NCBI RefSeq assembly: GCF_000186245.1
Contig: NC_014935.1
Location: 992,001-1,056,000, forward strand
Direction: 5' to 3'
DNA: 64,000 nucleotides
DNA from: Nitratifractor salsuginis DSM 16511
Lineage (GTDB): Bacteria > Campylobacterota > Campylobacteria > Campylobacterales > Sulfurovaceae
Part shown: piece by piece, positions 3,455-28,312 of the stretch
Position numbering within the stretch: position 1 is the first letter of the stretch
Layout of the letters: every line of letters begins with the position of its first letter
Position numbers and translations under genes: made by a program
The notes under the pieces: model-generated
Databases searched by the model: none
What the model saw: the letters and a program-made list of their open reading frames with translations, nothing else
Told to the model about the DNA's origin: nothing

Positions 3455-5433
3455 AGAGATCCCTTCAGCTCCATCGTCGATTCAAAAGGGGCCACCATCG
3501 CGATGCTCAGGGCCTGGGTCGTGAGGCTGTAACCCGCCTCATCCTGGGAAACGGTGCGCAGGGGGACGAAATATCCCTCCATCTCCCGGTCGAAACTCAG
3601 GGTGAGGGTGCGCCCGGTGTAGGGGTCCTCGATCATAAATTCCGATCCCAGAATCTCCAGCCCCTCATTGAGAGATTTTCCCTGAATACGTAGCGTATCG
3701 TAGTGGGCGAAGTGGAGGTTGAACTCCAGGGCATAGCGGTAGATCCCCTCCGCTTCGGTCTGTAAGTCGATGCTGAAGTGGAGGGTGCCCTTTTCGAGGC
3801 TGTAACGCTTTTCGAGGCTCGTGGGATGCTTCCGCTCGGTATAGAGGCCGCCCTCCCTTCGGAAATGGAGCGGAGCGAGCATCTCGAAGGGTTGGTTGGC
3901 GAAATCGCCGAACTCCCGGAAGGTGCAGCAGCGGAAACTCTCCCGGTCGAAATGCTCATCGGAGATATGGTCGATGAGGGAATTTTTGGTGTACCAGTCG
4001 AAGTGCAGCTCCCGCAGAGTCGCTTCGTCGGCCCGGTGGGGGAGGGAGTGGATAGTGCGGATCCCATTTTCCGGCTCCTCTTGCGTCGACTCCCGGGCTG
4101 AAGAAGCGGGAGGATTGAGGATCGCTTCGTGGTAAGCCTCGTAGCGGCGGGTGAGGGTGTTTTGGAAATTGAACTCTCTTTCAAGATCGAGCAGCTCGAT
4201 GAGCTGCCCGCCGCTGCGTTCGTAGAAACGGTAGACGAAGGTGCCGTCGTTGACCCGGCTTTCTTCATAGCCGTCGAAATCGCTGTCCTCGACGCTCGTT
4301 TCGCGCTTGAGGAGCTTTTCGCAGCGGGCCAGATAGCGGTAGGCGTTGTCCCGCAGGTTGGGGAGGTAGAGCCCGCCGAAGACCCCGTGCCAATAGACGT
4401 CGTTGCACTGGAGGCGGTAGAGATCCTCCCGGTTTTCTTCAGGGAGTAGTAGTCGGTTCATCTGAAGCATCCGCTTGTGGAGGCGGTTGGACTCTTCGTA
4501 TTTAACGAAGAAGTTTTTCCAGATTCCGCCCCGGATGAATTTGATGCCCACCTTTTCGAAATACTCTTCGTCGAAGCGCTTTTGCAGTTTCTCCAGCTCC
4601 AGGGTGTCTTTGGCCCGGAGGCTCCACTCCCCCATCTCGTAATAGGAGACATTGGGGAGATAGGCGAGGCCCGTAGGCCGCTCATTTAGGGCATCGGCGT
4701 AATGGGCCGTCTCGATCCGCTCGTCGGCGAGCACTCCTTCGATGAAGGCTTTCAGCCAGCCTTTGGTATAGACCCATTCGTGGGTCTCGGGCCAGAGCCC
4801 GAACTTCTCCGCGTCGTCGAAGATGACGGCGAGTTTTCGCTGCGCCACCGCTTCGATGCTCTGCGGAGCTTCGTGGAAGGGGATGGCGTAGCGCAGGGCT
4901 TTGGAGATGGGGAAGAGAGCCAGCTTTTCGCCTCCTTCCTCGGTGAGGAAATAGCCCTCGATCTCCTCGGGGTCGAAGCCGGCGGCGATGAGATGGTAGT
5001 CGTCCACAACCGCATACTCGACCCCCGCTGCGCGCAGGTCCGCAACCAGGCCGTTCTCCCAGACCCGCTCGGTGAGCCAGAGGCCCCTGGGAGTCTGCCC
5101 GAACTCCGCTTCGAGGGTCTTCGAGAGCCGTCCGATCTGCTCGAGACGGTCCGATGAGGGGATGGAGGCGAGGATCGGTTCGTAGTAGCCGGCGCTGAAC
5201 CACTCGATGGCTCCGGCGTCGCTGAGCCGCTTAAGATTGCCATAGACTTCGGGAGCGTCCCGTTTCAGTTTCTCCAAAAGCCAACCGCTGCAGTGGAGGC
5301 TGAATTTGAACTCGGGATAGCGTGCCAGGGTTTCGAAGAGCGGAGCGTAGCAGCGCTCGATCGCCCGGGAGACCGCTTCGTCCAGGTTCTCCACAGGTTG
5401 GTGCATATGCAGGCCGAAGAGCAGGCGAGTCAT
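3442..5433 (-). CDS. GH57 4-alpha-glucanotransferase/alpha-amylase with DUF1925 and DUF1926 domains
   Basis: 663 aa, close to the 659-aa Thermococcus litoralis glucanotransferase. The start LLFGLHMHQPVEN is the GH57 HxHQP motif. WLTERVWE (Glu122) matches the family nucleophile and FDDAEKFG (about Asp206/207) the acid-base region. The C-terminal half fits the beta-sandwich DUF1925/DUF1926 portion. The expected role is disproportionation of maltodextrins in the cytoplasm, as no signal peptide is visible. It lies 51 nt from the second GH57 gene and overlaps galT by 13 nt. This enzyme could replace the missing malQ/glgX function. Confidence 0.9.
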   Translation of the reverse strand: MTRLLFGLHMHQPVENLDEAVSRAIERCYAPLFETLARYPEFKFSLHCSGWLLEKLKRDAPEVYGNLKRLSDAGAIEWFSAGYYEPILASIPSSDRLEQIGRLSKTLEAEFGQTPRGLWLTERVWENGLVADLRAAGVEYAVVDDYHLIAAGFDPEEIEGYFLTEEGGEKLALFPISKALRYAIPFHEAPQSIEAVAQRKLAVIFDDAEKFGLWPETHEWVYTKGWLKAFIEGVLADERIETAHYADALNERPTGLAYLPNVSYYEMGEWSLRAKDTLELEKLQKRFDEEYFEKVGIKFIRGGIWKNFFVKYEESNRLHKRMLQMNRLLLPEENREDLYRLQCNDVYWHGVFGGLYLPNLRDNAYRYLARCEKLLKRETSVEDSDFDGYEESRVNDGTFVYRFYERSGGQLIELLDLEREFNFQNTLTRRYEAYHEAILNPPASSARESTQEEPENGIRTIHSLPHRADEATLRELHFDWYTKNSLIDHISDEHFDRESFRCCTFREFGDFANQPFEMLAPLHFRREGGLYTERKHPTSLEKRYSLEKGTLHFSIDLQTEAEGIYRYALEFNLHFAHYDTLRIQGKSLNEGLEILGSEFMIEDPYTGRTLTLSFDREMEGYFVPLRTVSQDEAGYSLTTQALSIAMVAPFESTMELKGSLCLS

Positions 5434-5484: not shown

Positions 5485-7410
5485 TTAGACAAACCAGTTC
5501 TGTGCGTAATTCTCATCGGGATTGACGAAGAGGCGGGCGCTGGAAGGGAGGGTAGCCAATATTTTCCCATCAGCCGAAATTTCGAAACGTACTTCATAAC
5601 CTCGTTTCTCGAGCCCTTTCTTGGCTACTGCGATCTCGATGATCTTTTCGGCGGCCATCCGTTCGGGCCGGATCTCCTCTTCGTCGAAAAAGAGTTTGAG
5701 CTCCAATTCCTTGGGATTTTCGGCATCGAGGCGGAAATAGAAATATTCCCCATCGCTTCCCCAAAAGATCCGCTCCACGACGTCGGAGCTGTTTTGCATA
5801 CTGCCGCCGCTGTGGCGCTCATCGATCATCCCGGCATCGACCCATTCGAAAAAGGAGGTAACTCTCCCGTCGATGACGGGCTGGATGGGGGCTTTGGGTT
5901 CGTTGACGATGTTGTGGATCGTGTGGGAACCGACGATGGGGCGGAGCAGGTCCCGGGGCGCGGGCAAGCCCATCAGCTCGTAGATGCTGATCAGATGATC
6001 GCGGTAGAGCCGGTCGAACTCCCGGGCGAATTCGGTGTAGTGCCCTTCGCCGTACCACCAGAACCAGTCGGAGGCTTCCGCCGCCAGGAAATGGGCGAGG
6101 ATCTGCGGGTCCTTCTCTTTGCCCAGATGGCGCACATCCCGCCGGGTCTGGAAGAGCAATTCCCAGGCACGGTTTTTCTCTTCGTCGCCAATCCAGGTGC
6201 GGAAGGTCCCGTCGATCCAGGAACCGGGGGCCAGACGCTCGAGCTTTTTGGCGGGAAGCGCAGCCGCTTCGTCGCAGGTAAGCGGAGCGAACTCCTCGAT
6301 CATCGCGTAGAACTTCTCGAGAAACTCCCGCCCGTTATTCGGATAATACTCCCAGGCGTTCTCCCCGTCGAGGATCACGAAGAGGGTCCCTTTTTTCTCC
6401 GCAAGCCGGCGTCGGAAATCCTCCACCGCCCGCTCGGCGGGGAGAGTGCGGTAGCTGAATCCGATCAGGTCACTGAGCTCGTGATCCCGGAAGAAGAGTT
6501 TGAGCCCCCGATAGTCATAGACGCGGTAGGGATCGCTACCGCCGCTTTTTTGCAAAATCGCCTGGTCAGTGGCGATCCACCGGATGCCGGCCTCTTGGAA
6601 GAGTTCGGCGCTTTGGGGGTCCACCGCCCCCTCCGCCGGCCACATTCCCACGGGATCGCTGCCGAAATGGCTGCGGTAAATCTCCTTCGCCTTTTGCAGA
6701 TGGAGTTTTGCATCGGAGGCGAGGGAGAGGCCGTCGGGGGGCAGGGGGGTGGAGGGATCGGCCAGCTCGGCTGTGTGTATGTCGATGAGCAGCGGCAGGA
6801 TGGGGTGGGAGTAGGGGGTGGTAGAGAGGGTGATCTGCCCCTTTTTGCGCAGTGAGTCGTAAAAGGGGAGGATCTCCGGCAGGAAATCGAAGAGGGCGTC
6901 GAGCAGTGCCTCTTTATCCTTCGCGTCAAAACGCTCCTGCGGCAGCAGTTTTTTGACGGTTGCATCCTTCTCCCGCAGCCAGGGGCCGCACCAGCTCAGC
7001 AGAAAACAGCACTCCAGGTTGACCAGCTCTTCGTCGCTGTACTCCTCCTGTGAGTAGAGGGCGTCGAAACTGGGCAGGGGTTTGACCATCGTTTCATACT
7101 GGGCCGATTTGCAAAGCTGCACCACGAAGTCGCGCTCATCGGCGGAGAGCCGGGCGGGATCTTTGAGCCAGAGGCTGAGGAAGCGGTCGCTTTGGGGGCC
7201 TTTGGCGATGTATGTGTCGAGCTGTTCGATCAGGATCGGAGTGAGGTTGAAGCTGGCCTTTGCTTTGGAGCGTGAAAGGAGCCAGGGCATGTCGTAGTAG
7301 TCCTTGATGGCGTGCAAAAAGACCCAGGGCATAATGAAACGCCCCGACTCATCCCGATAATCGGGCTGATGCATATGCCAGAGCAGGACGAGATTCACTC
7401 CTGCATCCAT
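5485..7410 (-). CDS. GH57 alpha-amylase/amylopullulanase-type glycosidase
   Basis: 641 aa, a GH57 lineage different from the neighbour at 3442-5433. The N-terminus VLLWHMHQPDYRDE is typical of the amylopullulanase/alpha-amylase subgroup. GMWPAEGAVDP carries the probable nucleophile Glu260, and VILDGENAWEYYPNNG the acid Asp348. After about residue 500 there is a beta-rich C-terminal domain. No signal peptide is visible, so it probably trims intracellular glycogen. It overlaps the upstream fusion gene by 16 nt. Whether it acts as amylase, debranching or branching enzyme cannot be told from sequence alone. Confidence 0.88.
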   Translation of the reverse strand: MDAGVNLVLLWHMHQPDYRDESGRFIMPWVFLHAIKDYYDMPWLLSRSKAKASFNLTPILIEQLDTYIAKGPQSDRFLSLWLKDPARLSADERDFVVQLCKSAQYETMVKPLPSFDALYSQEEYSDEELVNLECCFLLSWCGPWLREKDATVKKLLPQERFDAKDKEALLDALFDFLPEILPFYDSLRKKGQITLSTTPYSHPILPLLIDIHTAELADPSTPLPPDGLSLASDAKLHLQKAKEIYRSHFGSDPVGMWPAEGAVDPQSAELFQEAGIRWIATDQAILQKSGGSDPYRVYDYRGLKLFFRDHELSDLIGFSYRTLPAERAVEDFRRRLAEKKGTLFVILDGENAWEYYPNNGREFLEKFYAMIEEFAPLTCDEAAALPAKKLERLAPGSWIDGTFRTWIGDEEKNRAWELLFQTRRDVRHLGKEKDPQILAHFLAAEASDWFWWYGEGHYTEFAREFDRLYRDHLISIYELMGLPAPRDLLRPIVGSHTIHNIVNEPKAPIQPVIDGRVTSFFEWVDAGMIDERHSGGSMQNSSDVVERIFWGSDGEYFYFRLDAENPKELELKLFFDEEEIRPERMAAEKIIEIAVAKKGLEKRGYEVRFEISADGKILATLPSSARLFVNPDENYAQNWFV

Positions 7411-9920
7411 TGACGGATCAGCTCCCGGTACTTATCGTGGATCTTCATCCCCTCTTCTTGGTCTTGGGCCTGGATGTAGAGGTTGAGATCCTCACTGTAT
7501 TGATCGGGGATCATCAGCACCCAGTCGTTCTCGGCTTCCCAGATCTTGACCCCGTCGAGGCTGGAGTGGCGCTTGCCCTTGGCGTATTCGAGGAATTTGC
7601 GCATCATTTTGCCCTTTTTGCTCTGGGGGCAGGGGATCTTGCAGCGCTGGTAGAAGAAGCTTTTGATCTCCTTTTCGATCTGCGAAAGGGCGATCCGGTG
7701 GCGGGAAAGGAGCTCCATAATTTTCAAGGTGGCGTAGATGGCGTCGCGATGGGAGGCGAACTCGGTGAAGGCGAAGTTGCCGTCGACAGTAGCCAGCAGA
7801 TCGAATCGGGCATAGTCGTTGCGTTTGAAATCCTGGTAGCGTCCCCGGGCGATCTCGAGATGTCGGAAATCGCCGTCCATCATATCGGGAGCCCAACTGG
7901 GCAGGAAGACCCGGTACGTCTTGCCCGAAGCGGCGGCATCCATCTCCATCAGGCGCAGCACGGCGATGAGGGCATCGACCCGGTCGAAGACCCCTCCGTC
8001 GTCGGCGACCAGGGTCAGGCGCTGTCCATGCGGGTAGATGAGCGCTCCCATCTGGAACTCCAGGGCCGGGATGATCTTGGAGAGTTCCTGCTTCGACATC
8101 TTGATGTAATGGGAAATCATATCCATTTTGAGACGGTCGTAGTAGGCGTTGAGCAGGATGTTTTCGATCTGGGTCTCCGAAAGGATCTGAGGAAAGATAT
8201 CTTTGGTGATGCCGAACATCAGGTCGATAGCGACCTTGAACTCTTCGCCCCGGATGATCCGGTGGTCGATCAGCTCTTCGATGCGCTCTTTGTAGCGGCG
8301 GCAGGCTTCGGTGTGGCGTTCCTCGCTATCGTCCAGGCTGCCCATCCCTTTGTAATCGACTTTGCGGAAGCTCTCTTTGAAATAGTTCTTCTCCAAAGAT
8401 TTGGCGGTGGCATTGTCCAGGCGCAGCCCCTCTTCGTTGTAGAGGATGATCTCCACGCTAGAAGGATCCTGGAGGCTCTTGCGGAAATAGGCGCCCCCTA
8501 CGAGCTTCTCATCGTGCTGAATGTTGAAGCGCAAAACGGAAGGGGGGATCTCCTGCAGGTCGAGGATGTTGACCCCCGTGGCCAGGATGCCTCCGTCGAA
8601 GGCCCGTTTGAGCATGCGGGAAGAATCCTCGAAATCCCGGCCGATGGCGATGGTGCTGCCCGTCGGCAGGAGCGAAGCGAAGGCTTCGGCGATCTTGCAG
8701 GACATTTCGCAGCCGATCTCGATGTTGGCCTTGCCGCTGATGATCCCTTCGCGGAAGATGGCGTTTTTGTATTTGGTGCCCCAGACGACGTTGTTGCTGA
8801 CGATGGCGGCGGGCTCGATCTCCTTGTCGGGCCAGACGGTCACATCCTGGTCGAAGACGGCCAGTTTGCCCACCCGGCACCCCTCGGCCAGGATCACTCC
8901 GGCTTTGGCGGTGACCATATCGCCGATCCGGTTGTCGTTGCAAATGACGGCATTGTCGAAGAAACACTCTTTGCCCATCTCGATGTCGTGCCAGAGTACC
9001 GAATTGCGCAGGCGGGTCTTTTCGCCGATCGTGACTCGGTCGCCGATGGTGACATTGTGGAGGCGGCACTTTTTGCCGATCGTGACCCCATCGCCCAGGA
9101 CGACGGTCTCCAGGATCTCCACGCTGGGATCGATCTCCACTTTACCCTGCAGATAGAGGGTCCCTTCGGGATAGTCGATGCGCTTGCCCGGAATTTCGAA
9201 TTTCACTTCGTGGCTGAAGATATCCCGATGCACTTCCCGGTAACTGTCGGGGTTGCCCACATCCCGCCAGTACCCCTGGGCGGTGTAGCCCATCAGGTCG
9301 ATCCCTTTTTGCATCAGCAGGGGAAAAAGATCTTTGGCGAAGTCGAAGGGCTCCCCCTTGGGGATGAAGTCGAGGATCTCGGGCTCGATGACGTAGATGC
9401 CGGTATTGATCGTATCGCTGAAGACCTCTCCCCAGCTCGGCTTTTCGAGGAATTTCTCGATCTTCCCCTCTTCGTTGACGATCACCACGCCGAATTGGAG
9501 CGGATTCTCCACGGAGGTGAGGGTGATGGTGAGTTTGCTTTGGCGCTGGCGGTGATGCTCCAAAATTTCTGCGAAGTTGAAATCGGTCACCAGATCCCCG
9601 CTGACGATCATAAAAGTCGTGTCGAGGTACTCCCTGGCGAAGCCCACGGCCCCGGCGGTGCCGTAATCGGCATCGGGGAGGACATAGTGGAGCTTCACAC
9701 CCCAGTCGCTGCCGTCTTTGAAATGGTTCGTGATCACTTCAGGCTTGTAATAGAGAAGGATCACCACTTCGTCGATCCCGGCCCCCTTGAGTTGCTTGAG
9801 GACATTCTCCATCATCGGCACGTTCATCACCGGCAGCATCGGTTTGGGGATCGAGTGGGTGAGAGGTTGGATCCGCGTACCGAAACCCCCGGCCATTAGG
9901 ACCGCTTTGGTTGCGCTCAT
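7395..9920 (-). CDS. Sugar-1-phosphate nucleotidyltransferase fused to hexapeptide repeats and a degenerate phosphohexomutase-like domain
   Basis: 841 aa. Residues 1-235 form a nucleotidyltransferase domain (VLMAGGFGTRIQPLT, KPMLP, SGDL, VGNPDSY). Residues 250-400 are left-handed beta-helix hexapeptide repeats. Residues 405-841 resemble a phosphomannomutase/phosphoglucomutase. The normal active-site serine loop (TASHNP) is replaced by GGAYFRKSLQDPSSVEI at about 475-491, so the mutase half probably does not use a phosphoserine. Similar fusions are called mannose-1-phosphate guanylyltransferase in cyanobacteria and actinobacteria. In this operon, production of an NDP-glucose for GlgA is a plausible role (inference). 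It overlaps CBM48 by 4 nt and GH57 by 16 nt. Confidence 0.85.
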   Translation of the reverse strand: MSATKAVLMAGGFGTRIQPLTHSIPKPMLPVMNVPMMENVLKQLKGAGIDEVVILLYYKPEVITNHFKDGSDWGVKLHYVLPDADYGTAGAVGFAREYLDTTFMIVSGDLVTDFNFAEILEHHRQRQSKLTITLTSVENPLQFGVVIVNEEGKIEKFLEKPSWGEVFSDTINTGIYVIEPEILDFIPKGEPFDFAKDLFPLLMQKGIDLMGYTAQGYWRDVGNPDSYREVHRDIFSHEVKFEIPGKRIDYPEGTLYLQGKVEIDPSVEILETVVLGDGVTIGKKCRLHNVTIGDRVTIGEKTRLRNSVLWHDIEMGKECFFDNAVICNDNRIGDMVTAKAGVILAEGCRVGKLAVFDQDVTVWPDKEIEPAAIVSNNVVWGTKYKNAIFREGIISGKANIEIGCEMSCKIAEAFASLLPTGSTIAIGRDFEDSSRMLKRAFDGGILATGVNILDLQEIPPSVLRFNIQHDEKLVGGAYFRKSLQDPSSVEIILYNEEGLRLDNATAKSLEKNYFKESFRKVDYKGMGSLDDSEERHTEACRRYKERIEELIDHRIIRGEEFKVAIDLMFGITKDIFPQILSETQIENILLNAYYDRLKMDMISHYIKMSKQELSKIIPALEFQMGALIYPHGQRLTLVADDGGVFDRVDALIAVLRLMEMDAAASGKTYRVFLPSWAPDMMDGDFRHLEIARGRYQDFKRNDYARFDLLATVDGNFAFTEFASHRDAIYATLKIMELLSRHRIALSQIEKEIKSFFYQRCKIPCPQSKKGKMMRKFLEYAKGKRHSSLDGVKIWEAENDWVLMIPDQYSEDLNLYIQAQDQEEGMKIHDKYRELIRQWMQE

Positions 9921-10329: not shown

Positions 10330-12465
10330 ATGCCGGGACAAGATCCTTCGACCAATTTAGCCTTGCCCTCCCTTCCTCCGGAGTTGGAAGAGCTGGGCGA
10401 AATCGCTTTGAACCTCTGGTGGACTTGGAACCCTGCCGGGAAAAACCTCTTCCGCCTCATCAACCCCTATTTATGGAAAGAGTCGGGCCACAATCCGATT
10501 CAATTGCTCAAAACCCTTTCAGCGCAAGAGCTCGAAGCTTTGACGAAGGAGGAGCGTTTTATGCGGGAATACCGCTATGTCAGAGCGCTCTTCCGTGAAT
10601 ATATGAACGATAAAACTATCTACAGTGAAGAAGAGCCTCTGCCCATCGCCTACTTCTGCGCCGAATTCGGTCTGCACCATTCGGTCCCCATCTATTCGGG
10701 GGGTCTGGGCTTTCTCGCCGGGGATATCCTCAAAGAGGCCAGCGATATGGGCTTGCCGATGGTGGGGGTGGGCTTTATGTACCCCGAGGGGTATGTGCGC
10801 CAGGTGATGAGCCCCGACGGTTGGCAGCAGGGGGCCAGCGAAACCATCGACAAGGATACTGCCCCCATCGAGCGGGTTTTGGACGAAAAGGGCGATCACC
10901 TCGTCTTTCAAGTCCCCTTCATCGATCCGCCGGTCTATGCCTCGCTCTGGAAGCTCAATGTCGGCCGGGTCTCCCTCTATCTGCTCGATACCGATATCGA
11001 ACAGAACGACCCCTGGGACCGGCAGATCTCTTCCCATCTCTACACCCCCGATATGAATCAGCGCCTCCGGCAGGAGATCGTCCTGGGGATCGGCGGCTAC
11101 CGGGCCCTGGAGATCCTGGGGATCAAATATTCGATCCTCCATCTCAATGAAGGGCATCCCGCTTTCGCCCTCTTCGAGCGGATCCGCTCTATGATCGAAG
11201 AGAAAAAACTCTCTTTGGATGAAGCCATCGAGCGGGTCAGGGCCAGCTCCGTCTTTACCACCCATACCCCCCTGCAGGCGGCGACCGATGTCTACAATTT
11301 CGACATGATGAGCCATTATTTCGGTGACTACTGGAAGCGGCTGGGGATGGACAAGGAGCGTTTTATGAGCTTCGGCCTGAATCCCGACGCTCCCAATGCC
11401 GGCTTCAATATGACGGTCTTGGGGCTCAAGCTCTGCAACCAACGTAACGCGGTCAGCCAAAAGCACGCCGAGGTGACCCGGCAGATCTGGAAGAACGTGC
11501 TTGCCCAGGATGAGCCCGGCAGCCCGCCGATTGTGGGGATCACCAACGGAGTGCATCTGCCTACCTGGCTGGGGGATGAGCTGCGTGACAGGCTCGACGA
11601 ACTCCTGGGGGAGCGTTGGCTTCAGCTCCAGGAGGATCCCGACCTCTGGTCCCGTGTGGATGAGTTGGAGGATGAAGAGATTTGGCAGCTGCACTACACT
11701 TACAAGGTGCGGATGGTCAACTTCATCCGGGAACGGGTCCGGCGCAAATGGTCGGATGAGGGGATCGACCCCATCGTCGCCATGGCCGAAGGGGTGATGC
11801 TCGACCCCGATGTGCTCACCATCGGCTTTGCCCGGCGTATGACCGCCTACAAACGCCCCGATCTGATCCTGCACGATCTCGACCGTCTGGAGAAGATCGT
11901 CAACAATTACGCCCGTCCCGTTCAGATCATCTTCGCGGGTAAAGCCCATCCCGCCGATCAGACGGGTAAGCAGATCCTCCAGCGGATCTTCAAAACGGCC
12001 CAGGATCGGCGTTTCCGCGGGCGGATCGCTTTTGTGGAGGATTACGGGGAAGGGACGGCCAAATACCTGGTGCGCGGCTGTGACGTCTGGCTCAACAATC
12101 CCCAGATCCCGATGGAGGCCTGCGGTACCAGCGGGATGAAGGCGGCGATCAACGGCACGCTCCACTGCTCGACTCTGGACGGCTGGTGGCCCGAAGGATA
12201 CAACGGCAAAAACGGCTGGGCCTTCGGCGGAGAGATTTCGGATGACGCCAAAGATGCCGCCGCCCTCTACGATCTGCTGGAGAAGGAGATCGTCCCCCTC
12301 TACTACACCTTGGATGAGCACAAACGCCCGGCCGGGTGGATCGCCAAAATGCGCGAATCGATCCGCTCCGTCTCGCCACGTTTCGGAAGCCGTCGAATGA
12401 TGAAAGAGTATCTGGAGAAGTTCTATCTACCTGTTTCACAAAGGAGCCGATCATGGGAAAACTGA
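10330..12465 (+). CDS. glgP: Alpha-glucan (glycogen/maltodextrin) phosphorylase, GT35
   Basis: 711 aa, of the TIGR02094 type with an N-terminal DUF3417 segment (LALNLWWTWNP style; here EIALNLWWTWNPAGKNLF). Conserved features are HLNEGHPAF, FTTHTPLQAATD, ARRMTAYKRPDLIL (phosphate site Arg/Lys) and GTSGMKAAING, in which Lys604 would hold pyridoxal phosphate. It releases glucose-1-phosphate from glycogen in the cytoplasm. An AGGAG-like site lies before the ATG. Its last 13 nt overlap gpmA. It is intact, in contrast to the second GT35 protein at 25683. Confidence 0.95.
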   Translation: MPGQDPSTNLALPSLPPELEELGEIALNLWWTWNPAGKNLFRLINPYLWKESGHNPIQLLKTLSAQELEALTKEERFMREYRYVRALFREYMNDKTIYSEEEPLPIAYFCAEFGLHHSVPIYSGGLGFLAGDILKEASDMGLPMVGVGFMYPEGYVRQVMSPDGWQQGASETIDKDTAPIERVLDEKGDHLVFQVPFIDPPVYASLWKLNVGRVSLYLLDTDIEQNDPWDRQISSHLYTPDMNQRLRQEIVLGIGGYRALEILGIKYSILHLNEGHPAFALFERIRSMIEEKKLSLDEAIERVRASSVFTTHTPLQAATDVYNFDMMSHYFGDYWKRLGMDKERFMSFGLNPDAPNAGFNMTVLGLKLCNQRNAVSQKHAEVTRQIWKNVLAQDEPGSPPIVGITNGVHLPTWLGDELRDRLDELLGERWLQLQEDPDLWSRVDELEDEEIWQLHYTYKVRMVNFIRERVRRKWSDEGIDPIVAMAEGVMLDPDVLTIGFARRMTAYKRPDLILHDLDRLEKIVNNYARPVQIIFAGKAHPADQTGKQILQRIFKTAQDRRFRGRIAFVEDYGEGTAKYLVRGCDVWLNNPQIPMEACGTSGMKAAINGTLHCSTLDGWWPEGYNGKNGWAFGGEISDDAKDAAALYDLLEKEIVPLYYTLDEHKRPAGWIAKMRESIRSVSPRFGSRRMMKEYLEKFYLPVSQRSRSWEN

Positions 12466-22767: not shown

Positions 22768-24399
22768 ATGCCACATCCTCTTGCCGGGCAGCCGGTTCCT
22801 CCCGGGGATCTTGTCGATATTCCCCGGTTGATCAGCGACTACTATACCCTCCATCCCGATCCCACGATTCCTGAAGAGCGTATCAGCTTCGGCACTTCCG
22901 GTCATCGCGGGAGCGCTCTGAAGCGCAGTTTCAACGAAGACCACATCCTCGCCGTCACCCAGGCGGTCTGTGATTACCGCAAAGAGCAAAAGATCGACGG
23001 GCCCCTTTTCTTGGGGCGGGATACCCATGCCCTCTCTCTCCCCGCCTTTCGCACGGCACTGGAAGTTTTGGCGGCCAACGATGTGGAAGTTCACATCGCC
23101 GGAGAGGAGGAGTATACCCCCACACCCCTCGTCTCCCGGGCGATCCTTCAGCACGAAGAGACGCAGGGACAGAAGGCCGACGGAATCGTCATCACGCCCT
23201 CCCACAATCCACCCGAAGACGGCGGTTTCAAATACAACGGCCCCGACGGCGGGCCGGCCGACACCCACATCACCGCCTGGATCGAAGAGCGGGCCAACGA
23301 CTATCTGAGCCGGAAGCTCGAAGGGGTCCGACGTCTCGATTTCGAGGAGGTATTGGCCTCGGAGAGTGTCGCGGTCTACGATTTCGTCGGCGAATATGTC
23401 AAGCGCCTGGGCGAAATCGTGGATATGGAGGCGATCAAAAAAGCGGGCATCCGCATCGGCGCCGATCCCCTTGGAGGGAGCGCCCTGCCGGTTTATCAGG
23501 CAATCCGGGATTACTGGGGGATCGATCTGACCCTGCTCAATCCGCGGGTCGATCCCACCTTCTCCTTTATGCGTCTGGACCACGACGGCAGAATACGGAT
23601 GGATTGCTCCTCTCCCTGGGTGATGAAGGGGTTGGAGGAGCACAAGGGAGAGTACGACCTGATCGTCGCCAACGATACCGACGCCGACCGCCACGGGATC
23701 GTCACCCGCAGCGGAGGGTTGATGAACCCCAACCACTATCTCAGCGTGGCGGTGGGCTATCTCAGTGAATACCGCGGCTGGGAGCCCGAGAAAATGATCG
23801 GCAAAACCCTGGTCTCCAGCTCTATGATCGACCGGGTGGCCGAGAGCTTCGGGCGAAAAGTCTACGAAGTGCCCGTGGGCTTCAAATGGTTCGTGCCGGG
23901 CCTGATCTCGGGAGAGCTCTGTTACGGAGGCGAGGAGAGCGCCGGAGCCAGTTTCCTCCGCTACGACGGTCGTGCCTGGTCTACCGACAAGGATGGGCTC
24001 ATTATGACGATGTTGGCGGCGGAGATTATGGCGGTAACGGGCAAGGACCCCGCGGAGATTTATAGGGAATACGAGAAGCGTTTCGGCAGAGCCTACTATC
24101 GGCGCATCGATGCTCCGGCGGACCGGGAACTCAAAGCCAGGCTCAAGGCTCTCGATCCCAAAGATATCACCGACAAAGAGTTGGCCGGCGAAGCGATCGA
24201 AGCGATCTATACCCGGGCACCGGGCAACGACGCCCCCATCGGCGGCCTCAAGATCGTCACGGCCCACGGCTGGGTGGCGATGCGCCCCTCCGGTACGGAA
24301 GAGATCTACAAGATCTATGCCGAGAGTTTCCTGAGTGAAGAGCATCTGGAGCGTTTGCTGGCCGAGGCCCAGTCGATCGTCGACAGACTCAAAGATTGA
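22768..24399 (+). CDS. pgm: Phosphoglucomutase (alpha-D-glucose specific)
   Basis: 543 aa. FGTSGHRG, the phosphoserine loop ITPSHNPPEDGGFKYNGPDGG (Ser145), the metal-binding DTDADRHG, and the C-terminal phosphate-binding RPSGTEEIYK are all intact. It interconverts glucose-1-phosphate (from glycogen phosphorylase) and glucose-6-phosphate. It is first of a four-gene run pgm-pgi-GT35-pfkA with short gaps (12, 17 and 2 nt). Confidence 0.95.
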   Translation: MPHPLAGQPVPPGDLVDIPRLISDYYTLHPDPTIPEERISFGTSGHRGSALKRSFNEDHILAVTQAVCDYRKEQKIDGPLFLGRDTHALSLPAFRTALEVLAANDVEVHIAGEEEYTPTPLVSRAILQHEETQGQKADGIVITPSHNPPEDGGFKYNGPDGGPADTHITAWIEERANDYLSRKLEGVRRLDFEEVLASESVAVYDFVGEYVKRLGEIVDMEAIKKAGIRIGADPLGGSALPVYQAIRDYWGIDLTLLNPRVDPTFSFMRLDHDGRIRMDCSSPWVMKGLEEHKGEYDLIVANDTDADRHGIVTRSGGLMNPNHYLSVAVGYLSEYRGWEPEKMIGKTLVSSSMIDRVAESFGRKVYEVPVGFKWFVPGLISGELCYGGEESAGASFLRYDGRAWSTDKDGLIMTMLAAEIMAVTGKDPAEIYREYEKRFGRAYYRRIDAPADRELKARLKALDPKDITDKELAGEAIEAIYTRAPGNDAPIGGLKIVTAHGWVAMRPSGTEEIYKIYAESFLSEEHLERLLAEAQSIVDRLKD

Positions 24400-24411: not shown

Positions 24412-25665
24412 ATGATCGACTATACCATCGACTGGATGCCCGAAAACGGAGCAGAGCTCGAAGCGAATATGAACGAAGCCTTCGAAAAGATCGTCGAGGA
24501 GCGGGAGCGGGGGATCAGCGGTTACTACTTCCTGCCCCAGGATTCGCGGATGATCGTCGAAGAGGTGGAAGCGACGCTCCTGCCGACTCAGACCGTTCAG
24601 GAGGCGGATACGGTGGTAGTGATTGGTATCGGCGGTTCCTCCCTGGGAGCCAAAGCCCTTGACGGCGTGCTGCGCTCCATCACTCCCGAGGCGAAGCGGA
24701 TGGTCTTTTTGGAAAATCCCGATCCGGTAGAGGTCTCGGAAAAACTCGAGAGTATCGATCCGGACAAGAGCCTCTTTTGCATCATTTCCAAATCGGGCGG
24801 GACCATCGAGACGACAACCCTCTACAAGATCGTCCTGGATCGCTTCGGGCTCCGTCCGGAAAGTGAGCACAAAGAGCGGCTCTTCGTCATTACCGACGAG
24901 GGTTCGATCCTTCACCGATACGCCGAGGAGCACGGGATCAAGAGTTACTTCATCCCCCACAATGTCGGCGGGCGCTTTTCGGTGCTCAGTGCTGTGGGGA
25001 TGGTCCCGCTGACCTTGGCGGGCTACAAGACTTGCGATATCCTCAAAGGAGCCCAGCAGATAGTGAAAGCCTTTTTCGACCGCCAGGCCGACCATATCCT
25101 GCAAAAAGGGGTCTTCTACGCCGGGCACTGGCAGGATTATCCTATGAACGTCCTCTTCGCCTACGGGTCCTTTCTGGAGGATTTCGCCAAATGGTATGTG
25201 CAGCTCTGGGGAGAATCCCTGGGCAAAATCGATGCCCAGGGAGAGAGGGTAGGGCTCACACCTCTGGGCCATATCGGCTCGGTCGACCAGCACAGCTTCC
25301 TGCAGCTGATTATGGAGGGCCCCCGGGACAAAACGGTCACCTTCCTGAAGGTCGAGCATTTTCCCACCGAGATCACCATCCCGGATATCAGCCTGAAACA
25401 TATCGAAAAGAACGACTACATCAACGGCCACAGTCTGGGAGAACTTCTCGACGGAGAGTGCGAAGCGACCTGGGAGAGTATCCGCAGCCAGGGAGTGCCG
25501 ACCGACGGCATCGTCCTGGATCGCATCAGCGAGGAGAATCTGGGAGAGCTGATCCTCTACTACGAGCTCTTGACCTCAGTGGCCGGAGCGACGCTCGGGA
25601 TCGATACTTATAATCAACCCGGCGTGGAGCTGGGCAAAAAAATTCTCGTCAAAAAATTTCACTAA
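24412..25665 (+). CDS. pgi: Glucose-6-phosphate isomerase
   Basis: 417 aa, the short bacterial type. VVVIGIGGSSLGAKAL and SKSGGTIETT bind sugar phosphate, and the catalytic region GRFSVLSAVGMVP and DQHSFLQLIMEGP carries the conserved His and Glu. It converts glucose-6-phosphate to fructose-6-phosphate. Start chosen at ATG 24412 after AAGGAG. Confidence 0.95.
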   Translation: MIDYTIDWMPENGAELEANMNEAFEKIVEERERGISGYYFLPQDSRMIVEEVEATLLPTQTVQEADTVVVIGIGGSSLGAKALDGVLRSITPEAKRMVFLENPDPVEVSEKLESIDPDKSLFCIISKSGGTIETTTLYKIVLDRFGLRPESEHKERLFVITDEGSILHRYAEEHGIKSYFIPHNVGGRFSVLSAVGMVPLTLAGYKTCDILKGAQQIVKAFFDRQADHILQKGVFYAGHWQDYPMNVLFAYGSFLEDFAKWYVQLWGESLGKIDAQGERVGLTPLGHIGSVDQHSFLQLIMEGPRDKTVTFLKVEHFPTEITIPDISLKHIEKNDYINGHSLGELLDGECEATWESIRSQGVPTDGIVLDRISEENLGELILYYELLTSVAGATLGIDTYNQPGVELGKKILVKKFH

Positions 25666-25682
25666 AAGGTCTATAAGACACG

Positions 25683-27350
25683 ATGAAAGCACAAGAGCTC
25701 TTTCCCTATACATTTGATGAAGCCTTCAAACGCCCTGTCGCCTATTTCTCGATGGAGTTCGCCATCGACCAGGCTCTCAAAACCTATTCGGGCGGGCTCG
25801 GATTTTTGGCAGGTTCGCATATGCGCAGCGTCAATGACCGGCGGCAAAACACCATCGGCGTCGGCATTCTCTGGAGCTACGGCTACTACGATCAGGGGCG
25901 ACACGAAGACAATACACTCAAGGTCGAATACCGGCGCAAGTTCTACTATTTTCTCAAAGAAACCGGCATTACCGTGGAGGTGGAGATCAACGGCAAGCCG
26001 GTATTCGTCAAAGCCTATCTCCTGCCGGCGGAGACCTTCGAATCGGCACCGGTGATCCTGCTCAGCACCGATATTTTCGAAAACGATCACCTCTCCAGAA
26101 CCATTACCCACAAACTCTACGACGCCAACGAAGAGACCCGGGTCGCCCAAGAGATCGTCCTGGGGATCGGCGGGACCCGGGTGCTCAAGGCTTTGGGGCT
26201 CGATATCGACATTTATCATCTCAACGAGGGGCATGCCCTGCCGCTGGCTTTTGAGCTCATGAAGGAGTATCCCGAACTCGAAGAGCTCAAGAAACACATC
26301 GTCTTCACCACCCATACCCCCGAAATGGCGGGGAACGAAACCCACGATGCCCACTTCCTGGAACGGATGGGCTTCTTCAACGGTTTCTCTCTGGACGAAG
26401 TGCGTGAAAAGCTCGATTACCACGATGCGGATTTCTCCCTCACCGTCGGAGCACTCAAAGTTTCCAAACGGGCCAACGCCGTCTCCAAGATCCACGAGAA
26501 AGTGGCCAACGAGATGTGGAAGAATGTGCCCGGACGCTGCGAAATCATCAGCATCACCAATGCCCAGAATATGCGCTACTGGTCCGACAAACAATTGATG
26601 AGCTGGATGCTCGAGCACGAAGACTATCAGCTGGTGGGGCGCAAAAAACACCTCAAACACCAACTCTTCGAAGAGGTGGCCGATCAGACCGGCAAGCTTT
26701 TCGATCCCGACGTGCTGACCCTGGTCTGGGCGCGGCGTTTCGCCGAGTACAAACGCCCCAAGCTCCTGATCCGGGATATGGAGCGTTTCAAGGCGCTGAT
26801 CCACAACAGCGAATACCCCATCCAGATCATCTGGGCGGGCAAACCCTATCCCCTGGATCAACAAGCGATCAACGAATTCAACGACCTGGTCCGGATGAGC
26901 CGGGAATTCAAAAACGTCGCCGTGCTCACCGGGTATGAACTGCGCCTCTCCAAACTCTTGAAACAGGGTTCGGACGTCTGGCTCAATACCCCCAGATGGG
27001 GCAGGGAAGCCAGCGGCACCAGCGGAATGAGTGCCGGGATCAACGCTTCGGTGCATTTCTCCATCGACGACGGGTGGCATGCCGAGTTCGGCAAAGACGG
27101 GGTCAACTCCTTTACGATCCCCCACGCCGATCCCTCCCTCCCCGTCGAAGAGATCGATCGCATCGACTATGAGCGGATGATGGAGAAACTCGAAAAAGTG
27201 ATCCTGCCCACCTATTACGATCAGCCCGACAAATGGCTCGAGATCGTCAAAAACGGAATGAACGACATCTACATCGGTTTCAACACCCAAAATATGGTAG
27301 AACGCTACTACAAAGAGCTCTATAATTACGAGCCCGAAACGGAAGGCTGA
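25683..27350 (+). CDS. GT35 phosphorylase-like protein lacking the PLP lysine
   Basis: 555 aa, shorter than GlgP (711 aa) and without DUF3417. GT35 landmarks are present: YSGGLGFLAG, HLNEGHALPLAFE, FTTHTPEMAGNE, ARRFAEYKRPKLLI, WAGKPYPLDQQA. In the cofactor motif, normally SGMK, it reads EASGTSGMSAGIN; the codon at 27030-27032 is AGT, so Ser450 replaces the lysine that forms the PLP Schiff base. The rest of the motif is unchanged. It sits between pgi and pfkA in one operon. It may be a non-catalytic regulator or a PLP-independent enzyme; function is unknown. Confidence 0.85.
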   Translation: MKAQELFPYTFDEAFKRPVAYFSMEFAIDQALKTYSGGLGFLAGSHMRSVNDRRQNTIGVGILWSYGYYDQGRHEDNTLKVEYRRKFYYFLKETGITVEVEINGKPVFVKAYLLPAETFESAPVILLSTDIFENDHLSRTITHKLYDANEETRVAQEIVLGIGGTRVLKALGLDIDIYHLNEGHALPLAFELMKEYPELEELKKHIVFTTHTPEMAGNETHDAHFLERMGFFNGFSLDEVREKLDYHDADFSLTVGALKVSKRANAVSKIHEKVANEMWKNVPGRCEIISITNAQNMRYWSDKQLMSWMLEHEDYQLVGRKKHLKHQLFEEVADQTGKLFDPDVLTLVWARRFAEYKRPKLLIRDMERFKALIHNSEYPIQIIWAGKPYPLDQQAINEFNDLVRMSREFKNVAVLTGYELRLSKLLKQGSDVWLNTPRWGREASGTSGMSAGINASVHFSIDDGWHAEFGKDGVNSFTIPHADPSLPVEEIDRIDYERMMEKLEKVILPTYYDQPDKWLEIVKNGMNDIYIGFNTQNMVERYYKELYNYEPETEG

Positions 27351-27352
27351 AA

Positions 27353-28312
27353 ATGGCACTGGCGATAATGGGATCGGGGGGAGACGCCCCCGGAATGAAT
27401 GCGGCGGTCAAGAAGTTCGTCGATTATCTTTACGACCGGGGGGAGACGCCCCATTTGATCTACGACGGCCTGGAAGGGCTCATCGACGGCAAGATCAAAA
27501 AGGCCGAGCACAAAGATGTGGCGGGGATTCTCCACCGGGGAGGGTGCGTCATCCGCTCCTCACGCTCGAAACGCTTCTATGATTACGAGTACCGCAAACA
27601 GGCTTACGAAAACCTGCAGAAGAACGGTATCGACGGATTGGTCGTCCTGGGGGGAGACGGCTCCTTCCGGGCTATGGATGTCTTCAGCAAGGAGTTTCCG
27701 GTCAATTTCGTCGGCATTCCCACGACCATCGACAACGATATCTACGGCACCGACTACTGCCTGGGGGTCGATACGGCTCTGAACACAATCCGTGATGCTC
27801 TCGACAAGATCTACGACACCGCTTCGACCTTCAACCGGGCCTTCGTCGTGGAGGTGATGGGCCGGGAGTGCGGCTATCTGGCGGTCATCTCTGCGATGGG
27901 ATCGGGGGCCGAAGTCTGTGTGATCCCGGAAGTGGCTTTCAACCGTCCCGTGGCCGAAGCGCGCCTCAAAAGGGAGATCGCCAACGGCCGTAACTACATT
28001 CTGGCCATCGTTGCCGAGGGGACGAAGAAGACTCAGGAGATCGCCGAGTGGATCGAGAAAGATCTGGGATTCGAGACTCGCGTGACAGTACTCGGGCATA
28101 TCCAGAGGGGAGGGGCCCCGAGCAGTTACGACCGCTTGATGGCTTTCGAATTTGCCGTTCGCGCAGTCGATCACCTACTGGAGAGTCAACGATCCAATAA
28201 AGTGGTGGTCTATCAAAACGGTCATTTCGATCTCCTGGAGATCGATACGGTCGTCAGTAACAAATATCAACTCAATCCCCGGCATTTGGCAATGCTGAAT
28301 ATATTGGATTGA
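27353..28312 (+). CDS. pfkA: 6-phosphofructokinase
   Basis: 319 aa. IMGSGGDAPGMNAAV (nucleotide loop), VLGGDGSFRAM, PTTIDNDIYGTD (catalytic Asp in TIDND), VVEVMGRECGYLA and GHIQRGGAPSSYDR are typical of the ATP-dependent enzyme. GGDGS rather than GGDDS favours ATP over pyrophosphate. It commits fructose-6-phosphate to glycolysis. Only 2 nt separate it from the GT35-like gene. A Pfk is not universal in Campylobacterota, and its linkage to glycogen genes is notable. Confidence 0.93.
   Translation: MALAIMGSGGDAPGMNAAVKKFVDYLYDRGETPHLIYDGLEGLIDGKIKKAEHKDVAGILHRGGCVIRSSRSKRFYDYEYRKQAYENLQKNGIDGLVVLGGDGSFRAMDVFSKEFPVNFVGIPTTIDNDIYGTDYCLGVDTALNTIRDALDKIYDTASTFNRAFVVEVMGRECGYLAVISAMGSGAEVCVIPEVAFNRPVAEARLKREIANGRNYILAIVAEGTKKTQEIAEWIEKDLGFETRVTVLGHIQRGGAPSSYDRLMAFEFAVRAVDHLLESQRSNKVVVYQNGHFDLLEIDTVVSNKYQLNPRHLAMLNILD

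Follow-up and report, generated by a model that had tools for sequence, protein, structure and literature searches.

A widespread subfamily of GT35 phosphorylase homologues without the pyridoxal phosphate lysine, and a candidate replacement lysine on the neighbouring helix

How a homologue of glycogen phosphorylase could serve without the lysine that binds pyridoxal phosphate (PLP) is the question raised by an open reading frame at 25683 to 27350 (forward strand) of the window, the 64,000-nucleotide stretch of the Nitratifractor salsuginis DSM 16511 genome that was analysed. The frame encodes an alpha-glucan family phosphorylase of 555 amino acids, hereafter called the S-form. In a MAFFT alignment with MalP and GlgP of E. 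coli (reference sequences drawn from MG1655) and 11 Lys-bearing campylobacterotal paralogues, Ser450 (codon AGT, 27030 to 27032) falls on MalP K646, which has been named as the PLP lysine (PMC11046441). It closes the motif E442-ASGTSGM-S450 (27006 to 27032, forward strand; E442 codon 27006 to 27008) and is followed by A451 and G452. Thus, the Schiff-base lysine of PLP-dependent glycogen phosphorylase (EC 2.4.1.1) is absent, as an earlier note on this DNA had read. Membership of the GT35 family is indicated by a TIGR02094 score of 418.5 bits against a cut-off of 191.7 (for PF00343, 47.4 bits against 27), so far above the cut-off of the former that automatic annotation would label the protein an alpha-glucan phosphorylase and mask the loss of the lysine. 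A normal Lys-bearing GT35 paralogue of 711 amino acids, also recognized in the earlier note, is encoded at 10330 to 12465 (forward strand) and reads EACGTSGMKAAIN at the PLP lysine site.

The AF2 model of the 555-residue protein (pLDDT 93.6, pTM 0.92) has the GT-B fold of glycogen phosphorylase and can be matched to glycogen phosphorylases across 530 to 540 residues, in agreement with the initial reading that the rest of the fold is well kept. The fold is shared over its whole length with Segatella copri glycogen phosphorylase (PDB 9l6i; Z 34.6, VIA; 30% identity), a member of the TIGR02094 branch. Phosphorylases of this branch have the glucose and phosphate residues and the EASGTSG motif in common with the S-form, which differs from them in having Ser, Thr or Ala for the PLP lysine, in the gain of E419 and K427, and in the absence of about 95 N-terminal residues (a DUF3417-like part) and of an internal stretch. 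The GT-B fold is also shared with MalP and GlgP of E. coli (TIGR02093 branch; Z 32.5). Residues H346, R535, K540, E638, W457 and Y614 of MalP are retained in the S-form, whereas K646 is lost, I623 is replaced by Lys, C615 by Glu and A619 by Ser, and the S-form is about 240 residues shorter.

Proteins without the lysine form a subfamily that extends far outside the Campylobacterota, beyond what the earlier note had described. Residue 450 is Thr in 137, Ser in 54 and Ala in one of 192 S-forms, and Lys in none; the carriers belong to Campylobacterota, Bacteroidota, Verrucomicrobiota, Gastranaerophilales and other groups. Within the family of N. salsuginis, the short form was found by protein search in about 41 of 150 genomes, relatives placed in one alignment being 60-87% identical, and Ser or Thr occupies position 450 in all 30 loci that were read, so a sequencing error does not explain Ser450. 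When 397 genomes of the phylum were searched by profile, the S-form was located solely in the host's order, and many of the genomes that carry it had no Lys-bearing GT35 protein. Genome contigs scanned with a DNA pattern (the motif followed by Ser or Thr) yielded at least 119 loci, of which at least 118 are true members; sources among the pattern matches listed include Chryseobacterium, Pedobacter, Hymenobacter, Akkermansia, Luteolibacter, Halopseudomonas, Gastranaerophilales, Sulfurovum, Sulfurimonas and Sulfuricurvum. Checks that did not depend on the pattern gave the same result: of 30 Bacteroidota loci located by profile, 29 were readable and all 29 encode S-forms, as do eight loci of Gastranaerophilales. 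No description of a lysine-less or PLP-independent glycogen phosphorylase subfamily was found in the open-access papers searched.

On a tree of 53 sequences, built with columns 419, 423, 427 and 450 removed, rooted on MalP and GlgP of E. coli and containing a limited sample of Lys-forms, one branch (SH-aLRT 90) sets off every S-form, and loss of the lysine is explained by one change. The dN/dS ratio between close relatives is 0.065-0.13; the S-form gene is under strong purifying selection, and the earlier expectation of a working protein holds in the sense that the gene is kept by selection.

Several GT35 homologues of other kinds were encountered. A Chromatiaceae metagenome-assembled contig (REDK01000043.1, match at 4179-4219, reverse strand) carries a classical GlgP frame in which Arg replaces the PLP lysine (EASGTGNMRFMLNG); on this single draft contig, the Arg may reflect either an error or a further loss that arose independently. 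Another homologue (G201:C1:456699-458228) is broken into frames of 304, 121 and 58 amino acids and is a decaying gene. The PLP lysine is retained by two short GT35 proteins of 614 and 569 amino acids (L337 and L338, G707:C64), whose genome encodes an 871-residue relative as well, and a coupling of short length to lysine loss was rejected on account of them.

Absence of the lysine is accompanied by residues gained on the neighbouring helix, which the earlier note had not recorded. Both E419 (26937 to 26939) and K427 (26961 to 26963) are present in 192 of 192 aligned S-forms versus none of 76 Lys-forms. The pairing of positions 450 and 427 is equally strict, being non-Lys with Lys in all 192 S-forms and Lys with a hydrophobic residue (Val, Ile or Leu; Thr once) in all 76 Lys-forms. 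Between them lies S423 (26949 to 26951), invariant in S-forms and rejected as a strict marker because Ser occurs at this position in 9 of 76 Lys-forms too. The spacing of the three residues (26937 to 26963, forward strand) puts them on the same side of helix 420-429 in the AF2 model, right after Y418; their equivalents at 419 and 423 in rabbit glycogen phosphorylase are R649 and A653, which we take to contact PLP. One lysine has thus been lost from a helix and another gained on the adjoining helix, together with a glutamate. The sole S-form with Ala at position 450 (L043, genome G208), a short GT35 protein and the one exception to the predicted and otherwise upheld fixation of Ser or Thr at this position in Campylobacterota, retains K427 and E419, which indicates that Ser or Thr at 450 is not itself essential. 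Another residue, K33, was considered as a substitute lysine and rejected; it is absent from several S-forms and present in MalP.

The remainder of the active site is conserved. Residues H211, N293, R352, K357, E442, G445 and T446 are found in all 192 S-forms, R351 in 190 (Lys in two), W300 (equivalent to MalP W457) in 192 and Y418 (MalP Y614) in 190. The phosphate-site residues R351, R352 and K357 (26733 to 26753, forward strand), which contain an R-x4-K arrangement, correspond to K534, R535 and K540 of MalP. The substrate and phosphate residues represented in MalP by H346, R535, K540 and E638 are all invariant, as H211, R352, K357 and E442. The position of MalP W457 is occupied by Cys in 21 of 76 Lys-forms.

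The genomic setting of the S-form was examined in the host and its relatives. Upstream of it on the forward strand are pgm (phosphoglucomutase-like, 22768 to 24399) and pgi (glucose-6-phosphate isomerase-like, 24412 to 25665), and downstream is pfkA (6-phosphofructokinase-like, 27353 to 28312), pgm being named by sequence reading and by the earlier note; the order pgm, pgi, S-form, pfkA in one operon is confirmed as first described, the genes being separated by 12, 17 and 2 bases. Among 20 campylobacterotal loci, same-strand genes no more than 3 kb away include pgm (8 loci), pgi and pfkA (6 each), a gene for a nucleotidyltransferase-phosphoglucomutase fusion (9), glgA (6), a GH57 gene (5) and a galT-like gene (5). 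The window itself encodes, on the reverse strand, a GT5 glycogen synthase (glgA, an open frame at 236 to 1693; PF08323 E 1.1e-86). A gene at 7395 to 9920 (reverse strand), whose 841-residue product looks like a sugar nucleotidyltransferase fused to a phosphoglucomutase domain, adjoins GH57, GalT-like, ROK-kinase-like and GlgA genes. Outside the Campylobacterota, neighbours of the S-form are scattered, malQ (L112) and a ROK-type glucokinase-like gene (L139) being examples. The clusters with pgm, pgi, pfkA and glgA in Campylobacterota argue for a working phosphorylase over a regulator or dead enzyme.

In 42 of 44 genomes taken from the pattern-scan matches listed, a set reached via a pattern that requires the S-form, the S-form is unaccompanied by any other GT35 protein, and no Lys-type is present. 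These 44 genomes encode a classical GlgB in 25 cases and a GlgB-like match (E about 2e-63 or better) in 14 more, giving a branching enzyme in about 39. In the host's family, glgA occurs in 36 of 41 S-form genomes versus 13 of 109 others (Fisher p 2e-18, kinship ignored; none of the distribution statistics takes account of common descent), and the glgA-bearing genomes have the S-form only (29), the Lys-form only (7), both (7) or neither (6). The S-form as a replacement for GlgA was rejected, since most genomes of this family that carry the S-form carry GlgA too. In a set of 296 genomes of Bacteroidota, the S-form occurs in 33 and a Lys-form above the cut-off in 166, and none was seen with both: in this phylum, the S-form takes the place of the Lys-bearing form. 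Both forms are present in 11 Campylobacterota genomes, including that of N. salsuginis, so the S-form is no simple replacement there. For the N. salsuginis genome, gene content was taken from family searches. Some S-form Bacteroidota are without full-length GlgA, for example G517, G520, G531 and G548, which have GT5 proteins of about 275 amino acids comprising the N-domain only. Several such genomes have GH13 frames of about 1,100 amino acids, which we take to be the size of TreS-maltokinase fusions and which would fit a GlgE-type route.

Taken as a whole, the S-form is probably an active phosphorylase of one kind or another. The invariant glucose and phosphate residues, the usual status as sole GT35 protein and the replacement of the Lys-form in Bacteroidota suggest that the role is the old one and that the cofactor site has been rebuilt. 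The fullest version of this explanation, which we hold tentatively and at somewhat under an even chance, is an active alpha-glucan phosphorylase with PLP held by K427. Such an enzyme, acting on glycogen or maltodextrin, would supply glucose-1-phosphate to the products of pgm, pgi and pfkA; the PLP lysine on helix 446-452 would have been lost once, in the ancestor of the subfamily, K427 and E419 would have arisen on the neighbouring helix 420-429, and PLP would still be in use with K427 as its new anchor. For the S-form, we infer activity, the direction of the reaction, the presence of PLP and the anchoring by K427. Continued use of PLP seems most likely because the 5'-phosphate, not the aldehyde, does the work in this enzyme class; in glycogen phosphorylase, the catalytic group is the 5'-phosphate of PLP (PMC6411801), so the Schiff base may be movable in principle. 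Against this explanation stand the changes at 419 and 423, also near PLP, after which the cofactor may no longer fit, the resemblance of G417, Y418 and S423 to residues on the adenine side of GT5 (E. coli GlgA), the 11 Campylobacterota genomes that hold both forms, and the S-form Bacteroidota without full-length GlgA.

It is possible, if doubtful, that a clade in at least four phyla gave up PLP, either because phosphorolysis became cofactor-free or because another phosphate-bearing ligand is held in the pocket by K427 and E419. An alpha-glucan phosphorylase free of PLP, in which R352-x4-K357 and the substrate phosphate would drive front-side phosphorolysis while K427 and E419 fill or stabilise the empty pocket, is unlikely. 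It would account for the invariance of R-x4-K in 192 S-forms all of which are without the PLP lysine, and it has a precedent: GT35 has been described as the sole phosphorylase family requiring PLP (PMC4336185), and trehalose phosphorylase, a retaining GT4 phosphorylase (PMC8950772), acts through an R-x4-K site (PMC12018205). The GT4 enzyme belongs to another family and has another substrate, the likeness being one of site and described chemistry (PMC8950772, PMC12018205), and Lys-bearing GT35 proteins have R-x4-K too. Moreover, 99-100% of S-forms retain the residues of the second phosphate subsite (G445-T446, R351) and those of the aromatic wall (W300, Y418), which would be odd around an empty pocket, and a lysine fixed at a once-hydrophobic position suggests a ligand.

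Another reading is that the former PLP pocket accommodates the nucleoside of an NDP-glucose (ADP-, UDP- or GDP-glucose), which would make the protein either another glucan synthase or a glucan:NDP glucosyltransferase. The fold of the S-form resembles the GT-B fold of the GT5 glycogen synthase of E. coli (Z 31.8), its G417, Y418 and S423 (G-Y-x4-S) match GlgA G354, Y355 and S360 around the adenine, and the nucleotidyltransferase-phosphoglucomutase fusion gene is nearby in 9 of the 20 loci. Nevertheless, a nucleotide-sugar enzyme is improbable: the E419/K427 pair is absent from the GT5 members compared, the lysine of the GT5 KTGGL motif (E. coli GlgA K15) is Tyr35 in the S-form, which reads Y-S-G-G-L, matches to GT5 families are weak, and another motif follows the catalytic Glu. 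Since most of the host family's S-form genomes already have glgA, a second synthase would be redundant there and a phosphorylase would be missing.

A non-catalytic, glycogen-binding regulator or scaffold is decidedly improbable, even though a residue held essential in all studied glycogen phosphorylases is lost and a normal GlgP coexists in the host genome. A pseudoenzyme is expected to have lost several catalytic residues or to be under relaxed selection, whereas the PLP lysine is the sole loss in 192 sequences, dN/dS is low, and the new residues of the cofactor pocket are strict, unlike drift. With the whole glucose and phosphate site kept, new charged residues fixed in the cofactor pocket, and the S-form as sole GT35 protein in glycogen-making genomes, a dead enzyme or regulator would be unexpected. 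The new role suggested in the earlier note (regulator, pseudo-enzyme or phosphate-independent transferase) is therefore less well supported than a phosphorylase, given invariant substrate residues in a protein that is usually the genome's only GT35 and that replaces the Lys-form in Bacteroidota. Sequencing error or gene decay in the host genome, for which nothing speaks beyond the one broken GT35 gene elsewhere (G201), is refuted by the same change across 192 sequences and a dN/dS of about 0.1.

Glycogen phosphorylase is the textbook case of PLP acting through its phosphate, and a widespread natural clade without the lysine permits a direct test of the purpose of PLP and of its Schiff base. 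If PLP is held by K427, the S-form would be a clear instance of a cofactor lysine that has moved between helices; should PLP have been given up, the S-form would be a classic enzyme in a natural form free of its cofactor. The subfamily also bears on the breakdown of glycogen in the many Bacteroidota, Gastranaerophilales and Campylobacterota whose sole GT35 protein is the S-form.
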